Origin: an uncultured bacterium
GTDB taxonomy: Bacteria; Actinomycetota; Actinomycetes; S36-B12; CAIYMF01
DNA length: 38,105 nucleotides
NCBI GenBank assembly: GCA_903927265.1
Contig: CAIYMF010000285.1
Location: 1-38,105, forward strand
Direction: 5' to 3'
The notes beneath the pieces were generated by a model. The model was not told where the DNA came from and did not search any database. It saw only the letters and a program-made list of their open reading frames with translations. The translations under genes were made by a program, and so were the position numbers. The stretch's first letter is position 1; every line of letters begins with the position of its first letter. Shown one piece after another: positions 3,329-32,760 of the stretch.

Positions 3329-4606
3329 TCACGGGCGCAGGTGCCCGTCACCCACCACCACATACGTGGTGCTCGTCAGTTCGGCCAGCCCCATCGGTCC
3401 GCGGGCGTGCAACTTCTGGGTTGAGATGCCAATTTCGGCGCCGAACCCAAATTCGCCACCGTCGGTGAAGCGCGTGGAGGCATTGACCATGACCGCCGCC
3501 GCATCAACACCGGCAATGAACCGGTTGGCGGCCGATTGCGAACCCGTGACAATCGCTTCCGTGTGCCCACTCGACCAACGCCGAATGTGTGCCAACGCGG
3601 CATCCAGCGAATCGACCACTCCCGCCGCAATGTCGAGCGAGTAGTACTCGGCCGCCCAGTCGACGTCTGTGACCGGCTCGAATGCGACTTCGGAGGCAGA
3701 AGCAGCCAGGGCAATTCGGTCGTCACCGTGAACAGTGACGCCCTTCGCCTTGAGTGCCTCAAGTACCGCCGGCAGGAACCGGTCAGCGATCGCTTCATGC
3801 ACCAGCAGAGTCTCGGCCGCGTTGCACACGCTCACCCGCTGGGTCTTGGAGTTCAGCACGATCGCCACTGCCATGTCGATATCGGCACTGGCATCGACGT
3901 AGACGTGGCAGTTTCCGACGCCTGTCTCAATGACCGGCACTGTCGACCCTTCAACCACACTGCGAATCAGGCCTGCTCCCCCGCGCGGAATGAGGACGTC
4001 GACCAATCCGCGCGCGGTCATCAAGTAGCCGACCGATTCATGGGAATCACCGGGTACCAACGTGATCGCATTGGCAGGAAGCCCCGCAGCAGCAATGGCT
4101 GCGCGCATCACATCGACCAACTCCTCATTGGTAGCCCGCGCCGACGACGACCCGCGCAGCAATGCCGCATTGCCACTCTTCAGGCACAGCACCGCGGCAT
4201 CGACAGTCACATTGGGACGGGCTTCGTAAATCATGCCCACCACTCCCAACGGCACCCGTACCTGACGCACCTCAAGGCCGTTGGGAAGTCGATATCCGCG
4301 CACCACATCGCCGACTGGATCTGGCAGGGCCGCCACGTCACGCACCGCATCTGCAATCACTGCAATGCGCGCAGCATCGAGAGTGAGCCGGTCGATGATC
4401 GCGGCATCGGTGCCTGCGTCTCGAGCGCGCTCAACATCGCCGTTGTTAGCCGCCACAATGCGATCAGTGGCCTCCACGAGTGCATCAGCCACTGCGAGCA
4501 ACGCGTGGTCTTTGCGGTCTCGAGTAAGAATCCGAAGTTCGGCAGCGGCCTCACGCGCACCTGATGCCGCCGCAAGTACCGCCCGCTGTTCGTCCGACTG
4601 ATCCAT
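3329..4606 (-). CDS. proA: Glutamate-5-semialdehyde dehydrogenase (gamma-glutamyl phosphate reductase)
   Basis: 425 residues, full length for ProA. It reduces glutamyl-5-phosphate with NADPH to glutamate-5-semialdehyde in proline synthesis. The catalytic Cys is Cys261 in the motif [12 protein letters not shown], and [21 protein letters not shown] is the conserved cofactor-side segment. It follows proB in the same direction with 32 nt between them. A TAGCCT box 7 nt before the ATG suggests its own leaderless promoter in addition to any read-through from proB. No ribosome binding site is visible. Nothing unusual in the coding sequence. Confidence 0.96.
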
Positions 4607-25113: not shown

Positions 25114-26400
25114 TCAGGCGGTCTTATCGCGACGTTCGCGACGGGCCGGAGTTTCGCGGGGCACCAACGTCGGGTTGACGTTGTTGGCGACCACTTCACC
25201 GGTAATGACCACGCGGGCTACGTCGTCGCGGCTCGGCACGTCGTACATGACGTTGAGTAACACCTCTTCGAGGATCGCCCTCAGTCCACGTGCGCCGGTA
25301 CCACGCTTGAGTGCCTGAGCAGCAATTGCTTCGAGCGCATCCTCGCTGAATTCGAGTTCGACGCCATCGAGCTCAAACAACTTCTGGTACTGACGCACCA
25401 GCGCGTTGCGCGGCTCGGTGAGCACCTTCACGAGTGACTCAGAATCAAGGGCCGTCACCGAGGTGAACACGGGCAAGCGGCCGATGAACTCGGGAATCAT
25501 GCCGTACTTGAGCATGTCCTCGGGCATCACACGACCGAAGATGTTGTGCGGGTTGGTCTCGGAATCAGTTTCGTCAGAGATGCTGACGGTGAAGCCCAGC
25601 GACTTCTTGCCGATGCGTGCCTCGATTACCTTGTCGAGCCCGGCGAACGCGCCACCGACGATGAACAGCACATTCGTGGTGTCGATCTGAATGAACTCCT
25701 GGTGCGGGTGCTTGCGGCCACCCTGCGGCGGAACTGACGCCGTGGTTCCTTCGAGAATCTTGAGCAGCGCCTGCTGCACTCCTTCGCCGCTGACGTCGCG
25801 GGTGATCGAGGGGTTTTCGCTCTTGCGCGCGATCTTGTCGATTTCGTCGATGTAGATGATTCCGGTTTCGGCCTTCTTGACGTCGTAGTCGGCTGCCTGA
25901 ATCAGTTTGAGCAGAATGTTCTCAACGTCTTCGCCCACGTAGCCGGCTTCAGTCAGCGCCGTGGCGTCAGCAATCGCGAACGGAACATTGAGCATGCGAG
26001 CCAACGTTTGCGCCAGCAGCGTCTTGCCCGAACCGGTGGGACCGAGCAGCAAGATGTTCGACTTCGACAGTTCAACGGAGTCTTCGCGGGGGCGTTCGCC
26101 GGCGCCTGACTGCACTCGCTTGTAGTGGTTGTACACCGCCACTGCCAGTGCCTTTTTGGCCACGTCTTGGCCGATGACGTACTGGTCAAGGAATTCGTAG
26201 ATCTCGCGCGGCTTGGGCAGTTCAGTGAACGTGACCTCGGAGGACTCCTGTAGCTCCTCTTCAATGATCTCGTTGCACAGATCGATGCACTCGTCGCAGA
26301 TGTAGACGCCGGGGCCGGCGATTAGCTTTTTGACCTGCTTCTGGCTCTTTCCGCAGAAGGAACACTTGAGCAGATCACCGCTCTCGCCGATGCGTGCCAC
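25114..26400 (-). CDS. clpX: ATP-dependent Clp protease ATP-binding subunit ClpX
   Basis: 428 residues, full length. The N-terminal zinc-binding domain has C13-SF-C16 and C35-DE-C38. The AAA+ core carries Walker A GPTGSGKT near residue 120, Walker [14 protein letters not shown], a sensor region, and the IGF-type ClpP-docking loop in the GARGL-containing C-terminal half. ClpX unfolds substrates and feeds them to ClpP. The GTG start has GGAGGT 6 nt upstream. In most actinobacteria clpX directly follows clpP2; here 3 kb of other genes lie between. Confidence 0.97.
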
Positions 26401-26529
26401 GTGAACCTCCGGGTAATGGACGGGCGGGGAGTACCCGTCGGGGAGACGTTACCCGCGTGGACCGTCAAATGGGGCGCGAATCACCGTCGCGCCGAGGCAT
26501 TTCGCCAAGGGCAGATTTTCCGGCTTCCC

Positions 26530-27216
26530 TCACATCTGCCACCACACGCTCGACCAGTCCATCGGTTCGAGCGCTGAGGTGACCTTGCGATCGACTCGAA
26601 CGGCGTCGACCAATTGCTGCCACGAGGGATGGTTGTAGTCGTCAACGATCACGATGCCACCCGGCGGCACCCGTCGACACAGAACTTCGAACTCTTCACG
26701 ATTCAGTGGCGGGCAACTCTGCGTGACGTGAAGCACTGCAATCGGAGTGTCGCCGGAATCGATCTGATTCGCTGAGTCGATCGTCGTGACGTTTCCGAGA
26801 ACGCCACTTTCGCGTGCGTGCGAAATGAGGGCGACAATCCAGTCGGTGTGTCGCTGGGCCATCCCAGCGTGGGAATCGACGGTCGCGCGGGCAACCTGCG
26901 ACTCTCGCTCACTCTCTGGCTGAGAGGCGCCGTCGGCAAACGTAACCAGGCCGAGTTCGGCAAGTTGGCCGGCGAACACGATGAGGTCGCGTTCGAGTAC
27001 CTCGCGCTCGACCGCGAATTCCTTCATCAGCACCTGCACCGCGCCCTCGATGGTGGGTGCGGCACTCAGCGCTTTCCACATCGCCATCCCCACACGGTCA
27101 AACGAGGTGGGCCGCAGGGTGTGCAGATTGACCACCACTCCCCCGACATCAAGGTCCTCGGTCACCGTGTCGGGGTTAGCGACCACGCGAGACTCAGCGC
27201 GGACTGTGGAGGCCAT
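26530..27216 (-). CDS. PqqD-like (RiPP recognition element) protein fused to a truncated TylF-like methyltransferase domain
   Basis: 228 residues from the ATG at 27216. Residues 10-92 match the PqqD / HPr-rel-A pattern: a short beta part (VVVNLHTLRPTSFDRVG), then MWKALSAAPTIEGAVQVLMKEF and a helix ending LAELGLV. PqqD-type domains bind leader peptides of ribosomally made natural products. Residues 155-228 resemble the C-terminal half of TylF/MacO-type O-methyltransferases (IAVLHV, then VPPGGIVIVDDYNHPSWQQLVDAV at 183-206). The SAM-binding glycine-rich motif expected before this is missing, so methyl transfer is doubtful. A GATACT box 6 nt upstream and the inverted repeat 27248-27269 form its likely control region. 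It is divergent from the glycosyltransferase gene. The name is a motif-level call. Confidence 0.7.
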   Translation of the reverse strand: MASTVRAESRVVANPDTVTEDLDVGGVVVNLHTLRPTSFDRVGMAMWKALSAAPTIEGAVQVLMKEFAVEREVLERDLIVFAGQLAELGLVTFADGASQPESERESQVARATVDSHAGMAQRHTDWIVALISHARESGVLGNVTTIDSANQIDSGDTPIAVLHVTQSCPPLNREEFEVLCRRVPPGGIVIVDDYNHPSWQQLVDAVRVDRKVTSALEPMDWSSVWWQM

Positions 27217-27247
27217 GTCAGCAGTATCGACGAGTCCTCGACGCCGT

Positions 27248-27269
27248 GACACCGTAGTTCCACGGTGTT
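27248..27269 (-). promoter_or_regulatory. Palindromic motif, copy 1 (RRE gene promoter)
   Basis: ACACCGT-AGTTCC-ACGGTGT (arms 27249-27255 and 27262-27268) is a perfect inverted repeat. The same sequence recurs at 28449-28470 and, diverged, at 28780-28801. On the minus strand it ends 19-20 nt upstream of the GATACT box (27223-27228) of the RRE gene, so it covers or touches the -35 position. It is probably an operator for an unidentified regulator. Confidence 0.7.
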
Positions 27270-27294
27270 CGACTCCCTTGGGGATGCGTAGGGT

Positions 27295-27314
27295 GAGTGG
27301 CGAGAAAGCCACTC
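27295..27314. promoter_or_regulatory. Perfect hairpin in the RRE-glycosyltransferase divergent gap
   Basis: GAGTGGC (27295-27301) and GCCACTC (27308-27314) with a 6-nt spacer GAGAAA. It lies 86 nt before the glycosyltransferase start. It may be a second operator or a leader-RNA stem. No T-run follows. Confidence 0.4.
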
Positions 27315-27400
27315 TGGTCGACGACCACTAGTAACGAAGACTCCTGAGCGACTGCGGGCACACACAAGCGCCACAGAACAGATGGGTACAGGCTGACACG

Positions 27401-28414
27401 GTGCGAGTAACCGACACAGGCGAACCGCCCGCGATCAGTGTGTTGATCGCGGTTCACAACCGCTTCGAATGGCTGGCCGCTGCGCTCGCCAGTGTGCGTC
27501 GGCAGTCGGTAACCGACTTCGAAATCATCGTCGCCGATTCCAGCACCCTCGATGGCGTGGGCGACTATCTGGCCCACCTTGCCTCACTCGACTCTCGCAT
27601 CACAGTTGTGACCAGCCCCAGTCCGCTCTCCGCACCCGAGGGGCGCAACCTCGCACTACTGCATGCCCGCGCACCGTTGATCGCCCTACTCGACTCCGAC
27701 GACGTCATGCGTCCCGGACGCCTGGCGCAGCAAGTCGCGGTGCTGCGCAACAATCCCGAGGTCGTGCTGGTGGCTAGCGACTTTAGGCGCATCGATCAGT
27801 GGGGTATCCACGTACCGCCACAGTCACCTGATGAGGTCCTGCCTCTGCCCATGCGCGACCTCACCGTGAAGTGGCGCCTGCCTTTCGACACACCCCTGGG
27901 ACCAACCTCGATGATTCGCGCACACGACCTGCGCGCCATCGGCGGCTTCGATAATTCATATCCACTCAGCGACGACTGGAGTGCGGCGTGGCAACTCAGC
28001 GAGCGCGGCGCGTTGCGCGTGCTCCCCGACGCGCTCAGCGACTGGCGCAGGTACTCCCGCCAGAGCAGCATCGTCCATCGGCGGCGCACCATGGTCGAGA
28101 TGCACCTGCTGACCTCACGCATCGTGTATTCGCGATTGGGCCACTGGTTTGGCCCTAACGTGCCCGCCCTCGGTCCCGACGCTTCCTCACAGCTGCCAGC
28201 TGACCAAGAGGAACTGCTGCGCGAACTGCTCGACCACGCCCTCACACACTGGGCGCCGAACGCAGACGAGCGCAATGAACTCGAGGGCGAGTGCGAGCGC
28301 CTCATCGCGATGGGCAGGCGCAGAAAGGCCGAGTCACAGTCGGAGTCGCACCGACTCTCCACGACGCTACCGCCGGCCCCGTGGGCACCGAACGAGGGCC
28401 ACCGCGCGACTTAG
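27401..28414 (+). CDS. Family 2 glycosyltransferase
   Basis: 337 residues with a GT-A fold. The N-terminus ISVLIAVHNRFEWLAAALASVRRQ is the UDP-binding entry of GT2 enzymes. The metal-binding DxD is D98-SDD in LIALLDSDDVMRPG, and the acceptor/catalytic region includes SMIRAHDLRAIGGFDNSYPLSDDW near 180-195. The last 60 residues are charged and probably helical. No membrane helix is seen, so it is cytosolic. It starts with GTG; a CAGGCT box lies 6 nt upstream, a weak match to a leaderless promoter. Substrate unknown. Its neighbours, an RRE protein and leader-like small peptides, suggest a role in peptide glycosylation, but an ordinary cell-envelope role is equally allowed. Confidence 0.9.
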   Translation: MRVTDTGEPPAISVLIAVHNRFEWLAAALASVRRQSVTDFEIIVADSSTLDGVGDYLAHLASLDSRITVVTSPSPLSAPEGRNLALLHARAPLIALLDSDDVMRPGRLAQQVAVLRNNPEVVLVASDFRRIDQWGIHVPPQSPDEVLPLPMRDLTVKWRLPFDTPLGPTSMIRAHDLRAIGGFDNSYPLSDDWSAAWQLSERGALRVLPDALSDWRRYSRQSSIVHRRRTMVEMHLLTSRIVYSRLGHWFGPNVPALGPDASSQLPADQEELLRELLDHALTHWAPNADERNELEGECERLIAMGRRRKAESQSESHRLSTTLPPAPWAPNEGHRAT

Positions 28415-28448
28415 TGGGGTAGCCCGCCGAGCCCAATCTTTCCCACTC

Positions 28449-28470
28449 AACACCGTAGTTCCACGGTGTT
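28449..28470 (+). promoter_or_regulatory. Palindromic motif, copy 2 (upstream of peptide 1)
   Basis: AACACCGT-AGTTCC-ACGGTGTT, perfect 8-bp arms, identical in its central 20 bases to copy 1 at 27249-27268. It lies 31 nt upstream of a TATCGT box; 12 of those 31 nt are a tandem duplication (28469-28492), leaving 19, the distance seen at the other copies. Confidence 0.75.
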
Positions 28471-28492
28471 TCAGCAAGGGTTTCAGCAAGGG
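28469..28492 (+). repeat. 12-bp perfect tandem duplication between operator and -10 box
   Basis: TTTCAGCAAGGG occurs twice head to tail. It sits between the palindromic motif and the TATCGT box and adds 12 nt, about one helical turn, to the spacing. Confidence 0.85.
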
Positions 28493-28501
28493 TTTCGTGT
28501 A

Positions 28502-28507
28502 TATCGT
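28502..28507 (+). promoter_or_regulatory. Candidate -10 box for peptide gene 1
   Basis: TATCGT (TANNNT). The same hexamer occurs downstream of the third motif copy at 28822-28827. No -35 match is present at 17 nt, which fits an activator-dependent promoter. The predicted leader is about 40 nt. Confidence 0.45.
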
Positions 28508-28553
28508 CAAACTACCCGCCGCACGGCGAATCAACGTGAAGGCGACAACCACC

Positions 28554-28706
28554 ATGATCCGCCACCCCGAGCCTCACGAAATTGCATTCCGGGGATTCTT
28601 CGGTCAATCGGTGCCCATCCGGGGATTCTTTGGTCAATCGGTGACCTACGGTGGCGGCGGCGAGGTGACCGCGGCCCGCAGCGCCGTCGGTCAGTTGGAC
28701 TCGTAA
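28554..28706 (+). CDS. Small peptide with two tandem RGFFGQSV decapeptides (candidate precursor peptide 1)
   Basis: 50 residues, ATG 28554 to TAA 28706. It begins IRHPEPHEIA after Met, then carries two in-frame 10-residue units, FRGFFGQSVP and IRGFFGQSVT, followed by YGGGG and EVTAARSAVGQLDS. A GAAGG element lies 11 nt upstream. Its leader resembles those of the two VSGG peptides downstream. A second copy with the same codon count lies at 29037-29189. The 30-bp DNA unit also occurs, reverse-oriented, at 32471-32760. I do not recognise the family. It may be a multi-core precursor peptide or merely a dispersed repeat that happens to be open. Confidence 0.5.
   Translation: MIRHPEPHEIAFRGFFGQSVPIRGFFGQSVTYGGGGEVTAARSAVGQLDS
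28589..28648 (+). repeat. 30-bp tandem repeat (2 units) inside peptide gene 1
   Basis: Units 28589-28618 and 28619-28648 share the core CCGGGGATTCTT(C/T)GGTCAATCGGTG. The period is a multiple of three, so the reading frame is kept. Confidence 0.85.
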
Positions 28707-28710
28707 CCGA

Positions 28711-28749
28711 TCAGGAAGCGCTGGCATCACCCGAGCCGATAACCGCATC
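28711..28749 (-). pseudogene. Embedded copy of the clpP2 3' end (fragment 1)
   Basis: The stretch starting TCAGGAAGCGCTGGC repeats the minus-strand end of clpP2 (29427 onward), including its stop codon and the Ser-Ala-Ser residues before it. Similarity fades after about 40 nt. It follows the peptide 1 stop directly, so it marks the border of a duplicated segment. Confidence 0.6.
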
Positions 28750-28779
28750 TGCGGGCTATCGCGCGGGTCGTTCCAACAC

Positions 28780-28801
28780 TACTCCGAAGTTCCACTGTGA
28801 T
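28780..28801 (+). promoter_or_regulatory. Palindromic motif, copy 3 (upstream of peptide 2, diverged)
   Basis: 17 of 22 positions match AACACCGT-AGTTCC-ACGGTGTT, with the centre AGTTCCAC intact. It ends 20 nt before a TATCGT box, the same geometry as the other copies. Confidence 0.55.
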
Positions 28802-28821
28802 TCATTAGCGATGTCAGGGTC

Positions 28822-28827
28822 TATCGT
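28822..28827 (+). promoter_or_regulatory. Candidate -10 box for peptide gene 2
   Basis: TATCGT in the context CTATCGTC, like 28502-28507. It would give a leader of about 49 nt before the ATG at 28883. Confidence 0.45.
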
Positions 28828-28882
28828 CTTCATCGTGAGCTAACGCTTCGACCAGTGAATCAAACAGAAGGAGACAGCCACC

Positions 28883-29005
28883 ATGGGCCCTAGCCCCGAG
28901 TCAGGTGCCACCAACTACCCCGGCGCACCCGCCGCAGCCCACGCCGACGACGCACTCACCGACGACGACCTTGAGATCGTCTCCGGCGGCCTTGTAGCGC
29001 GCTGA
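28883..29005 (+). CDS. Leader-type small peptide ending VSGG-LVAR (candidate precursor peptide 2)
   Basis: 40 residues, ATG 28883 to TGA 29005, with a strong GAAGGAG site 9 nt upstream. The order is a short variable N-terminus, ATNYPGAP, an Ala-rich linker, DDALTDDDLEIVSGG, then only LVAR. The stretch L-T-D-D-(D/E)-L-x-x-V-S-G-G is the pattern of double-glycine leader peptides of bacteriocins and other ribosomal peptides, where cleavage or recognition occurs at GG. Its sister at 29285-29407 is also 40 residues and shares ATNYPGAP and DDALTDDDL-(E/D)-(I/V)-VSGG but ends RVRL. Conserved leader with changed tail supports a precursor role. The four-residue tail is far shorter than usual cores. 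Confidence 0.72.
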   Translation: MGPSPESGATNYPGAPAAAHADDALTDDDLEIVSGGLVAR

Positions 29006-29070
29006 ACGGCGCAGCAACGCAAGGAAGACAACCACCACGATCCCCCACCCCGAGCCTCACGAGATTGCAT

Positions 29071-29130
29071 TCCGGGGATTCTTTGGTCAATCGGTGACCG
29101 TCCGGGAATTCTTTGGTCAATCGGTGCCCT
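29071..29130 (+). repeat. 30-bp tandem repeat (2 units) in the second copy
   Basis: Units 29071-29100 and 29101-29130 share TCCGGG(G/A)ATTCTTTGGTCAATCGGTG, the same family as 28589-28648. Confidence 0.85.
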
Positions 29131-29193
29131 CTCGAGGCGGCGCCGAGGTAAGCGCTGCTCGCAGCTCCGACGATCAGTGGGACTCGTCACCGG

Positions 29194-29220
29194 TCAGGAA
29201 GCGGTGGCCTTACCCGAGCC
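29194..29220 (-). pseudogene. Embedded copy of the clpP2 3' end (fragment 2)
   Basis: TCAGGAAGCG(G)TGGCCTTAC and the following CCGAG match the clpP2 end at 29427-29453 with three differences. It is placed, as fragment 1, straight after the RGFFGQSV frame. Confidence 0.6.
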
Positions 29221-29284
29221 CTACGCTTGTGGATGGCGTCAAAGTACCCGCCGACCAGCGCATCAGAGCGAAGGAGACACCACT

Positions 29285-29407
29285 ATGAGTCCTCACGAAA
29301 AGCCAGACGCCACCAACTACCCCGGCGCACCGGAAGCACCCGTGACTGACGACGCACTCACCGACGACGACCTTGACGTCGTCTCCGGCGGCCGCGTCCG
29401 CCTGTAA
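29285..29407 (+). CDS. Leader-type small peptide ending VSGG-RVRL (candidate precursor peptide 3)
   Basis: 40 residues, ATG 29285 to TAA 29407, with GAAGGAG 9 nt upstream. It shares with peptide 2 the segments ATNYPGAP and DDALTDDDL-D-V-VSGG, while the tail after GG is RVRL, basic and unrelated to LVAR. Its 5' flank (CGACCAG, ATCA, GAAGGAGACA) is alike too. There is no palindromic motif right before it, so it is probably read from the peptide 2 promoter. It ends 19 nt before the clpP2 stop on the other strand. As with peptide 2, the mature product, if cleaved after GG, would be a tetrapeptide; alternatively the whole peptide is modified. Confidence 0.72.
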   Translation: MSPHEKPDATNYPGAPEAPVTDDALTDDDLDVVSGGRVRL

Positions 29408-29426
29408 ACGCGCTGCGCATTGCCGG

Positions 29427-30068
29427 TCAGGAAGCGCTGGCCTTACGCGAGGCGATGACCTCGTCGATGATGCCGTACTCCTTGGCCGCGGCGGCCGTGA
29501 GGATCTTGTCGCGCTCGATGTCCTTTTCGATCTGCTCAGGAGTCTTGCCCGTGTGGAAGGCGATGATGCCTTCCATCTCGGCACGCATGCGCAGAATCTC
29601 GTTGGCCTGAATCTCGACGTCGGACGCCTGACCGCCGCCCTCGGTGTAGGGCTGGTGGATGAGGATGCGAGCATGCGGAAGCGCGAATCGCTTACCGGGG
29701 CTACCGGCCGCGAGCAGCACCGCAGCAGCCGACGCCGCCTGCCCCAGACACACCGTCTGCACATCAGGCTTGACGAACTGCATGGTGTCGTAGATCGCCG
29801 TCATGGCGGTGTACGAGCCACCGGGTGAGTTGATGTAGATCTGAATATCGCGGTCGGGGTCAAGTGATTCGAGGCACAGCAACTGCGCCATCACGTCGTC
29901 GGCCGACGCATCGTCGATCTGCACGCCGAGGAAGATGATGCGCTCTTCGAAGAGTTTGGTGTAGGGGTTGTGCACGCGCTCGCCGTTGGCGCTGCGCTCA
30001 CGGAACTCCGGCAGGATGTAGCGCGACGAGGGCGCGGTGTAGGCACTGCTCGGGGTGTAGATGCTCAT
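29427..30068 (-). CDS. clpP2: ATP-dependent Clp protease proteolytic subunit ClpP2
   Basis: 213 residues from the ATG at 30068, with GAGGAG 10 nt upstream; an in-frame ATG at 30086 that overlaps the clpP1 stop (ATGA) is an alternative. Serine protease of the ClpP family: catalytic Ser in [11 protein letters not shown], His in [10 protein letters not shown] and Asp in IERDKILTA. It starts [21 protein letters not shown], like actinobacterial ClpP2. It forms a mixed tetradecamer with ClpP1 and works with ClpX or ClpC. It is coupled to clpP1 upstream. Short copies of its 3' end lie in the island beyond its stop. Confidence 0.95.
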
Positions 30069-30082
30069 GTTCTGCTCGCTCC

Positions 30083-30688
30083 TCATGCCTGCGCCCCAAT
30101 AACACTGTCGATGATTCCGTATTCCATAGCCTGCTCGGCCGTGAACCAACGGTCGCGATCGGAGTCGGCCTCGATCTGGTCGAGGGTCTGTCCGGTGTGC
30201 CCGGCAATGAGCTCGGCCATGCGCTTCTTGATGAACAGCATCTGCTCAGCCTGAATCTTGATGTCCGAGGCCGTACCGCCGAGCCCACCGAGCGGCTGGT
30301 GCATCATGATGCGCGCGTTGGGCGTAGCCGACCGCTTTCCGGCGGCACCGGCGCACAACAGGAACTGCCCCATGGACGCGGCCAGTCCCATGCACACGGT
30401 GGCGACGTTGTTGGGAATGAGTTGCATCGAGTCGTAGATCACCATTCCGGCGCTGATCGAGCCACCGGGTGAGTTGATGTAGAGCGTGATGTCTTTAGCG
30501 GGATCGTCGGCCGCCAGAACCTGCAACTGCTTGGCGATGCGGTTGGAGTTGTCGTCGCGCACCTCGCCCTCGAGCCAGATAATGCGCTCGCGCAGGAGGC
30601 GTTCGTCGATCATGTCGCCGAAGCCGAAGCCGCTGCCACTCGGCGCGCGCAATTCCGGAACCATCAGGGACGGTCGCTCAATGCTCAC
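30083..30688 (-). CDS. clpP1: ATP-dependent Clp protease proteolytic subunit ClpP1
   Basis: 201 residues from the GTG at 30688, supported by GGGAG 7 nt upstream; longer frames lack support. Catalytic residues are visible: Ser in [11 protein letters not shown], His in IMMHQPLGG, and Asp in the [13 protein letters not shown] stretch. [20 protein letters not shown] is conserved. Partner of ClpP2 in the mixed protease. It follows tig by 141 nt, a gap long enough for its own promoter. In related bacteria this promoter is bound by ClgR; I did not find a clear ClgR box. Confidence 0.95.
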
Positions 30689-32470: not shown

Positions 32471-32760
32471 CACGCAAGAGCCCCGCTGCGGGCACCTTGT
32501 GACCAAAGAATCCCCGTACGGGCACCTCTTGACCAAAGAATCCCCAGTCCGGAAATCTCCTGACGGCGCCCCGGAGGTCATCTCTCCCCGAAGGTCATCT
32601 CTCCCAGCAGGTCATCTCTCCCCGAAGGTCATCTCTCCCAGCAGGTCATCTCTCCCCGAAGGTCATCTTGTGACCAAAGAATCCCCGTACGGGCACCTCT
32701 TGACCAAAGAAGCAGGAAGGGAGGTGGCCGTTGCGCTGAGGATCCTCGGACGGGCATCTG
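32471..32760 (-). repeat. Array of the 30-bp RGFFGQ repeat family, in a 383-nt gene-free stretch
   Basis: The gap 32454-32836, between tRNA-Gly and the GGDEF gene, holds no convincing gene. It carries at least four good copies of the unit GACCAAAGAATCCCC...CGGGCACCTC (starts near 32501, 32531, 32672, 32702) and diverged copies at about 32471 and 32731. The spacing is 30 bp. A 45-bp segment (32496-32540) is repeated perfectly at 32667-32711. On the minus strand, in one frame, the unit reads VPVRGFFGQ, the same as peptide gene 1, but starts and frames are broken here. CCCGTACGGG within the unit is a 10-bp palindrome. Confidence 0.85.
32576..32668. repeat. 17-bp tandem repeat, five full units and a partial one
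   Basis: Units GGTCATCTCTCCCCGAA and GGTCATCTCTCCCAGCA alternate, giving a 34-bp higher-order period. The array lies between the two perfect 45-bp repeats. The lack of spacers rules out a CRISPR array. Confidence 0.9.

Follow-up and report, generated by a model that had tools for sequence, protein, structure and literature searches.

The window, a 38,105-nucleotide stretch of DNA from an uncultured lake actinobacterium, contains between clpX and clpP2 two genes for 40-residue peptides, P2 and P3, which, to judge from their sequences and those of their relatives, probably serve as precursors from which very short modified or secreted peptides are made. In each, a leader with a double-glycine site is followed by four residues, LVAR in P2 and RVRL in P3, and the genes lie in an island that also encodes an RRE domain fused to a truncated TylF methyltransferase and a GT2 family glycosyltransferase. 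The chances appear about even that this island is a pared-down, lineage-specific RiPP locus of lasso-peptide derivation, in which the RRE would bind the precursors, which might then be glycosylated before cleavage after GG and export; we infer the cleavage, the export, and any signaling or antimicrobial role of the product.

The Island between clpX and clpP2

The features of the island and its borders, with positions in the window, are as follows.

25114-26400, minus strand: clpX
26401-29426: the island between clpX and clpP2, ~3 kb
26530-27216, minus strand: fusion of an RRE (PqqD-type; PF05402, E 2.4e-9) with a truncated TylF methyltransferase (C-terminal part of PF05711, E 3.4e-8)
27401-28414, plus strand: GT2 family glycosyltransferase (PF00535, E 1.6e-22; DSDD motif kept)
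28497-28553, plus strand: apparent relic, the upstream element of a lost precursor copy joined to spacer (element of repeat family D3 at 28497-28547; ATG not conserved)
28517-28737, plus strand: spacer repeat copy 1 (84% identical to 29000-29220; contains GATTCTTTGGTCA)
28868-28873, plus strand: ribosome-binding site of P2, AAGGAG (from sequence; kept in the copies in L014, a contig of the sister genome)
28883-29005, plus strand: putative precursor peptide P2, 40 aa, MGPSPESGATNYPGAPAAAHADDALTDDDLEIVSGG followed by the tail LVAR
29000-29220, plus strand: spacer repeat copy 2 (from the repeat comparison)
29271-29276, plus strand: ribosome-binding site of P3, AAGGAG (from sequence)
29285-29407, plus strand: putative precursor peptide P3, 40 aa, MSPHEKPDATNYPGAPEAPVTDDALTDDDLDVVSGG followed by the tail RVRL
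29427-30149, minus strand: clpP2

The initial annotation had described two 40-residue open reading frames with a VSGG leader, the tails LVAR and RVRL, and strong ribosome-binding sites; the coordinates and sequences were reproduced exactly, and AAGGAG lies ~9 nucleotides before the ATG of both genes. The leaders of P2 and P3 end in DDALTDDDLEIVSGG and DDALTDDDLDVVSGG, respectively, and have in common ATNYPGAP and DDALTDDDL(E/D)(I/V)VSGG. A further peptide implied by the initial annotation, with its ATG at 28554, looks like a relic instead; in place of the ATG, ACG stands at the corresponding position of the spacer copy that follows P2 and of the sister genome. The peptide array thus appears to turn over, one copy in the window being a probable relic and the copy that lies between the RRE and GT genes in the sister, with the tail YRI, being absent from the window.

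The RRE and GT2 genes are the only enzyme genes between clpX and clpP2. The island is found only in this genus. Of the rest of the family, 11 genomes have clpP2 immediately beside clpX, one further genome (G003) has an unrelated permease gene between the two, and one contig ends too early to show the arrangement. A functional link of the island to Clp is not indicated.

Conservation of the Leaders and Variation of the Tails

Besides that of the window, the collection contains one genome of the genus, G001, a Lake Pavin actinobacterial MAG, and its contig JAPLAU010000028.1 (G001:C5, here L014) carries the island with three orthologous peptide copies.

L014, 5184-5065: copy with the tail YRI, between the RRE and GT genes
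L014, 3907-3785: copy with the tail LVAR
L014, 3422-3294: copy with the tail RPILTR

P2 (profile E 3.5e-26) has the same tail as its L014 ortholog, and the site in L014 that matches P3, beside clpP2, has RPILTR. There are 21 invariant columns across the five peptides (two in the window and three in L014), and their tails are of 3-6 residues, not always the four noted initially. Homologs of the leader had been proposed as a test of the precursor role, and when the five-peptide profile was run against the order (166 genomes) and the class (395 genomes), its strong matches were confined to the two genomes of the genus, with none beyond them; weaker matches at the class and order levels were judged to be chance or NHLP/Nif11 leaders. 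Only weak matches (E at least 3) were obtained from plasmids, and no relatives were found in viral contigs.

The initial annotation had regarded frameshifts, or a lack of dN/dS constraint, as evidence against its proposal. No frameshift or stop is present in the RRE gene, the GT gene, or any of the five leaders, at a neighboring dS of ~0.3, but the dN/dS of the whole leader between copies is 0.3-1.0, only weakly below 1 and of low power with so few sites, and constraint is seen in the motif blocks, inside which synonymous changes are present. The peptides are real and conserved and probably constitute a RiPP-type precursor array. That they are non-coding chance open reading frames within a repeat array would fit the location of the copies in tandem DNA repeats, but it is extremely improbable in view of the ribosome-binding sites, the fit of the leaders to an independent protease consensus, the synonymous changes in the motif block, and the occurrence elsewhere in the order of similar peptides encoded by different DNA; the peptide reading frames are not chance.

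DNA similarity between the copies ends directly after the GG codons, and the four distinct tails have 3, 4, 4, and 6 residues. Given the local DNA, the probability of meeting a stop within six codons is ~0.15 per locus, and four distinct tails of no more than six residues would arise by chance with a probability of ~5e-4 assuming independence; it should be noted that the tails RVRL and RPILTR are at equivalent positions and perhaps not independent, so that the true chance is less extreme than this. Of the tails, only LVAR is common to both species, and it is followed by equally conserved DNA. Therefore, with tails no better conserved than the DNA that follows them, conservation does not demonstrate selection on the tail itself. 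Elsewhere, copies of a GG peptide with the tail DVREIW in two genomes (G126 and G127) are mutually too close to show tail conservation.

The RRE-TylF Protein and the Glycosyltransferase

The RRE-TylF protein has 228 residues from the ATG at 27216, and a longer form from a GTG at 27312 is possible. Its PF05402 match is over the cut-off and places an RRE domain beside short precursor genes, the arrangement of an RRE-dependent RiPP locus. In the AlphaFold model, which has a mean pLDDT of 64 and is confident only in the RRE and in the final Rossmann portion (the middle was left uninterpreted), the RRE part best matches the lasso RRE TbiB1 (5v1v, TMt 0.82) and also matches the leader-bound lasso RRE 6jx3, like 5v1v. 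Alignment to full-length RRE-TylF proteins indicates that the window protein and its sister are without the SAM-binding segment (GDFVETGVWRGG) and the DGD motif; on this evidence the window protein cannot be a working methyltransferase of the TylF type.

The full-length proteins are encoded within lasso-type clusters on contigs C99, C313, and G001:C27 of the same genomes and in G032, and when 395 genomes of the class were sampled, matches over both domains came from only three, all of one order. These clusters contain an Asn-synthetase-type cyclase, a B2 protease, a stand-alone RRE, an HprK-like kinase, a nucleotidyltransferase, and tandem precursors of ~40 residues. The island GT2 is 35-38% identical to the glycosyltransferases beside full-length RRE-TylF in the lasso clusters of the same genomes, and the RRE and GT2 of the island have apparently been recycled from such clusters.

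Between the two species, dN/dS is 0.36 for RRE-TylF, 0.24 for the GT, and 0.036 for clpX, with the RRE-TylF and GT frames intact in both; these two genes are maintained but fast-evolving. Such rates bear on the main alternative, that this is a decaying RiPP locus, in which cores of normal length have been cut short by deletions and frameshifts, the leaders are alike through recent duplication and gene conversion, and RRE-TylF is degenerating; a short tail may be an outcome of decay. Several segments have gone from the TylF domain, one peptide copy is apparently already a relic and the YRI copy lost from the window, RVRL and RPILTR differ by indels at the same position, the tails of P2 and P3 look mutually frame-shifted, leader dN/dS reaches ~1, and the value for the RRE gene, far over that of clpX, counts against the main RiPP reading. 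Decay is less easily reconciled with the intact frames of the RRE, the GT, and five leaders at a neighboring dS of ~0.3, with the ribosome-binding sites kept in all copies, with the dN/dS of the GT, and with short tails in every copy (~5e-4 if stops are random and independent), and it appears unlikely though by no means negligible.

A Double-Glycine Site and a C39 Exporter

With positions numbered backward from GG, the leader carries L(-12), an acidic residue at -8, L(-7), and V(-4), of which the three hydrophobic residues are present in all five peptides. In the C39 protease LahT, V-4, L-7, and L-12 of the leader sit in a hydrophobic groove, and for ComA the consensus reads L(-12)-x3-E(-8)-L(-7) (PMC6363468). 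Each of the two genomes encodes one C39 peptidase transporter, in an NHLM-type exporter (PF03412, E 7.8e-34 and 1.5e-33); for that of the window's genome (G000), TIGR03796 is the top family (E 3.5e-233) though under the equivalog cut-off, and the gene adjoins an NHLM ABC2-like gene. There is no C39 transporter gene in the island, the exporter being encoded elsewhere in the genome, on contig C99.

The peptides resemble C39/PCAT (AMS) precursors, including the NHLP/Nif11 families with the NHLM exporter, in L(-12)/L(-7)/V(-4)/GG, in conservation that ends at GG, in their hypervariable tails, and in the NHLM-type C39 exporter of the genome. However, they have no nitrile-hydratase or Nif11 domain, the leader is only ~36 residues, the exporter lies outside the island, and the tails have 3-6 residues, whereas those of the NHLP-Burk family average 26 (PMC2887384). 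Membership in NHLP/Nif11 was rejected on the lack of any nitrile-hydratase or Nif11 Pfam or NCBIfam match.

A search for the leader-end pattern recovered further short GG-leader peptides in the same genomes, with the motif [DE]LSxxELxxVxGG and hypervariable cores of 12-27 residues; this survey, made with patterns and profiles alone, was not exhaustive. Contig C256 of G000 (L118:1456-1876) encodes MADLDPIESELPSDELSNDELSDVAGG followed by AVVFGGTTGGKLPGTMSGTTGGTF, plus one neighbor, and contig C8 of G001 (L119:1456) a counterpart with the tail FPKSDTRVTGSGG behind the same acyl-CoA-ligase-type gene; neither has a RiPP enzyme gene beside it. Two short GG-leader peptides are encoded on G000:C203 (L116). 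In G130, DEALTDDELSQVAGG followed by AELPIAPVGEAV is encoded between an NHLM ABC2-type gene, which directly precedes it, and a methyltransferase gene, the product of which is 57% identical to one near the G000:C203 peptides. This Methyltransf_24 family protein recurs near short GG-leader peptides (L159 in G130:C294 and L124:8265-8972 in G000:C203). A GG-leader peptide of G120:C74 (L141), MVSDPHDINYDDVPDLTDKELDAVVGG followed by EGLTLELPNGLFDCSNV, also has YxxxP, and no RRE gene was noticed in the 10.5-kb contig that encodes it.

Across the order, similar GG peptides have predicted cores from six residues up. With such longer-core relatives in these genomes and the order, the window peptides are the short extreme of a local double-glycine family, and the 3-6-residue tails the end of a continuum rather than an isolated oddity. 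The statement in the initial annotation that cores of four residues are far shorter than any double-glycine product known to it holds in degree, but in this order predicted cores of small size form a graded series (6, 8, 10-13 ... residues). Its interpretation as a whole is partly supported; the conserved-leader, variable-core pattern is largely supported by the architecture, the GG site, and the RRE neighbor, and is backed by the sister species, the exporter, and the longer-core relatives.

The C39 motif and exporter would also serve unmodified secreted signals, LVAR, RVRL, YRI, and the like being released by the C39/NHLM exporter with the RRE and GT2 as hitchhikers from lasso clusters. All tails are basic or aliphatic, and the C256 peptides of the same genome occur without RiPP enzymes beside them; however, the RRE and GT2 are kept with the peptides in both species, one G001 peptide gene lies between them, and the island has no receptor or regulator gene. 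Release of unmodified signals is, on this evidence, quite improbable.

Proposed Roles of Leader, RRE, and Glycosyltransferase

In the lasso-derived RiPP reading, the leader would have two parts, an N-terminal block, ATxYPGAP, and a C-terminal block, LTDDDLxxVSGG, containing the C39 double-glycine site. Where GG peptides of the same genomes have no RRE alongside, the YPGAP block is missing; this absence, together with the derivation of the RRE from lasso clusters, suggests that ATxYPGAP, in which the spacing is YxxxP, not YxxP, is bound by the adjacent lasso-type RRE. The dead methyltransferase part may be a remnant or an adaptor, the RRE protein probably serving as a leader-binding adaptor, most likely for the GT2, which may glycosylate the leader or tail. 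The only C39 exporter of the genome, of NHLM type, is the likely enzyme for cutting after GG and exporting the 3-6-residue tail, possibly glycosylated.

A stronger proposal, which must be regarded as doubtful, is that chimeric leaders and a dead methyltransferase-RRE acting purely as a GT adaptor yield glycosylated peptides of 3-6 residues, the shortest known double-glycine products. If it is true, double-glycine exporters can deliver tri- to hexapeptides, lasso tailoring modules can be detached and put to use in a different RiPP class, and an enzyme that has lost its activity can be retained as an RRE adaptor. The finding also draws attention to short orphan peptides with GG leaders throughout this order of actinobacteria, which are easily overlooked because of their small size.

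Comparison with Known RiPP Systems

The RRE domain, TylF remnant, and GT2 of the island are homologous to those of the lasso clusters in the same genomes (33-38% identity), and tandem precursors of ~40 residues occur in both, but the island has no lasso cyclase or B2 protease, its methyltransferase is dead, and the core is far too short for a ring. The lasso leader motif that binds the RRE, YxxPx[L/V/I/F/A], is absent from the island peptides, in which YPGAP corresponds to YxxxP, and the tails of 3-6 residues contain no Asp or Glu acceptor for a ring of 7-9 residues. Membership in the lasso class was rejected on core length, leader motif, and the missing cyclase (C) and B2 genes.

Glycocins have a GG-type leader, a GT2-type glycosyltransferase, and a C39 exporter (PMC12457901). 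The island peptides are like them in these respects but have short tails without Cys, an RRE, and a GT with no detectable match to a solved glycocin GT. A PDB sequence search with the GT2 matched chondroitin/heparosan synthases and similar enzymes and no glycocin GT, and glycocin membership was rejected for want of a SunS-like GT match in that search and of Cys in the tails.

The very short tail and the presence of an RRE and GT2 would also suit a carrier-peptide scaffold, whose end residues are processed without cleavage at GG, as in mycofactocin or the aminoacyl-tRNA-dependent pearlins. Mycofactocin has MftB and MftF, which resemble the RRE and GT2 at the domain level only. The GT scores 47 bits against the MftF model, for which the cut-off is 280 bits, the leader fits a C39 site, and the island contains no radical SAM enzyme, peptidase, or amino-acyl ligase gene; processing of this kind is very unlikely. 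The mycofactocin-like processing offered as an option in the initial annotation lacks its main feature, the radical SAM enzyme, and membership was rejected in the absence of MftC from the island and of an MftA family match for the precursor.

Linear polyphosphorylated peptides (LPPs) are likewise RRE-dependent and non-lasso, share lasso machinery, and occur with lasso clusters in the same genome, and they provide a precedent for lasso-related RREs that serve a different RiPP in genomes also holding lasso clusters (PMC13381572). The island differs in having no HprK kinase, NTP transferase, or SpI-like peptidase, and in its leader and protease type. Biarylitides, with a five-residue precursor, are a precedent for very short RiPP cores and resemble the island peptides in having very few core residues, whereas they are P450-dependent and without a GG leader (PMC13417212).

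Lasso-Type Clusters and Repeats

Full-length RRE-TylF lies next to GT2 in the lasso-type clusters at L018:7118-8317, L017:2422-3477, L016:6866-8119, and L019:6890-8158, and tandem arrays of 3-5 lasso-like precursors (e.g. MTEREPYSKPAEPVLVGSVEMSEVTYSGSGSDLSIYSSLV) are at L016:9052-9569, L017:4608-5346, L018:9304-9852, and L019:4904-5748. The cores of these arrays mostly share (Y/F)xGSGxD, in which the ring acceptor position is unusual if T is at -2. A further cluster with RRE, HprK-like, GT2, and nucleotidyltransferase genes and without a recognized precursor is at L045:98-3490 (G000:C11) and in L046 (G001:C9).

Rfam gave no match in the island. The repeat GATTCTTTGGTCA, which is absent from ten other stretches of the two genomes, occurs in the window at 28594, 28624, 29077, and 32512-32683 (minus strand) and in L014 at 3683-3713 and 141. 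Its copies, which often come in pairs spaced by ~30 bp, are located in the peptide spacers and around 32.5 kb.
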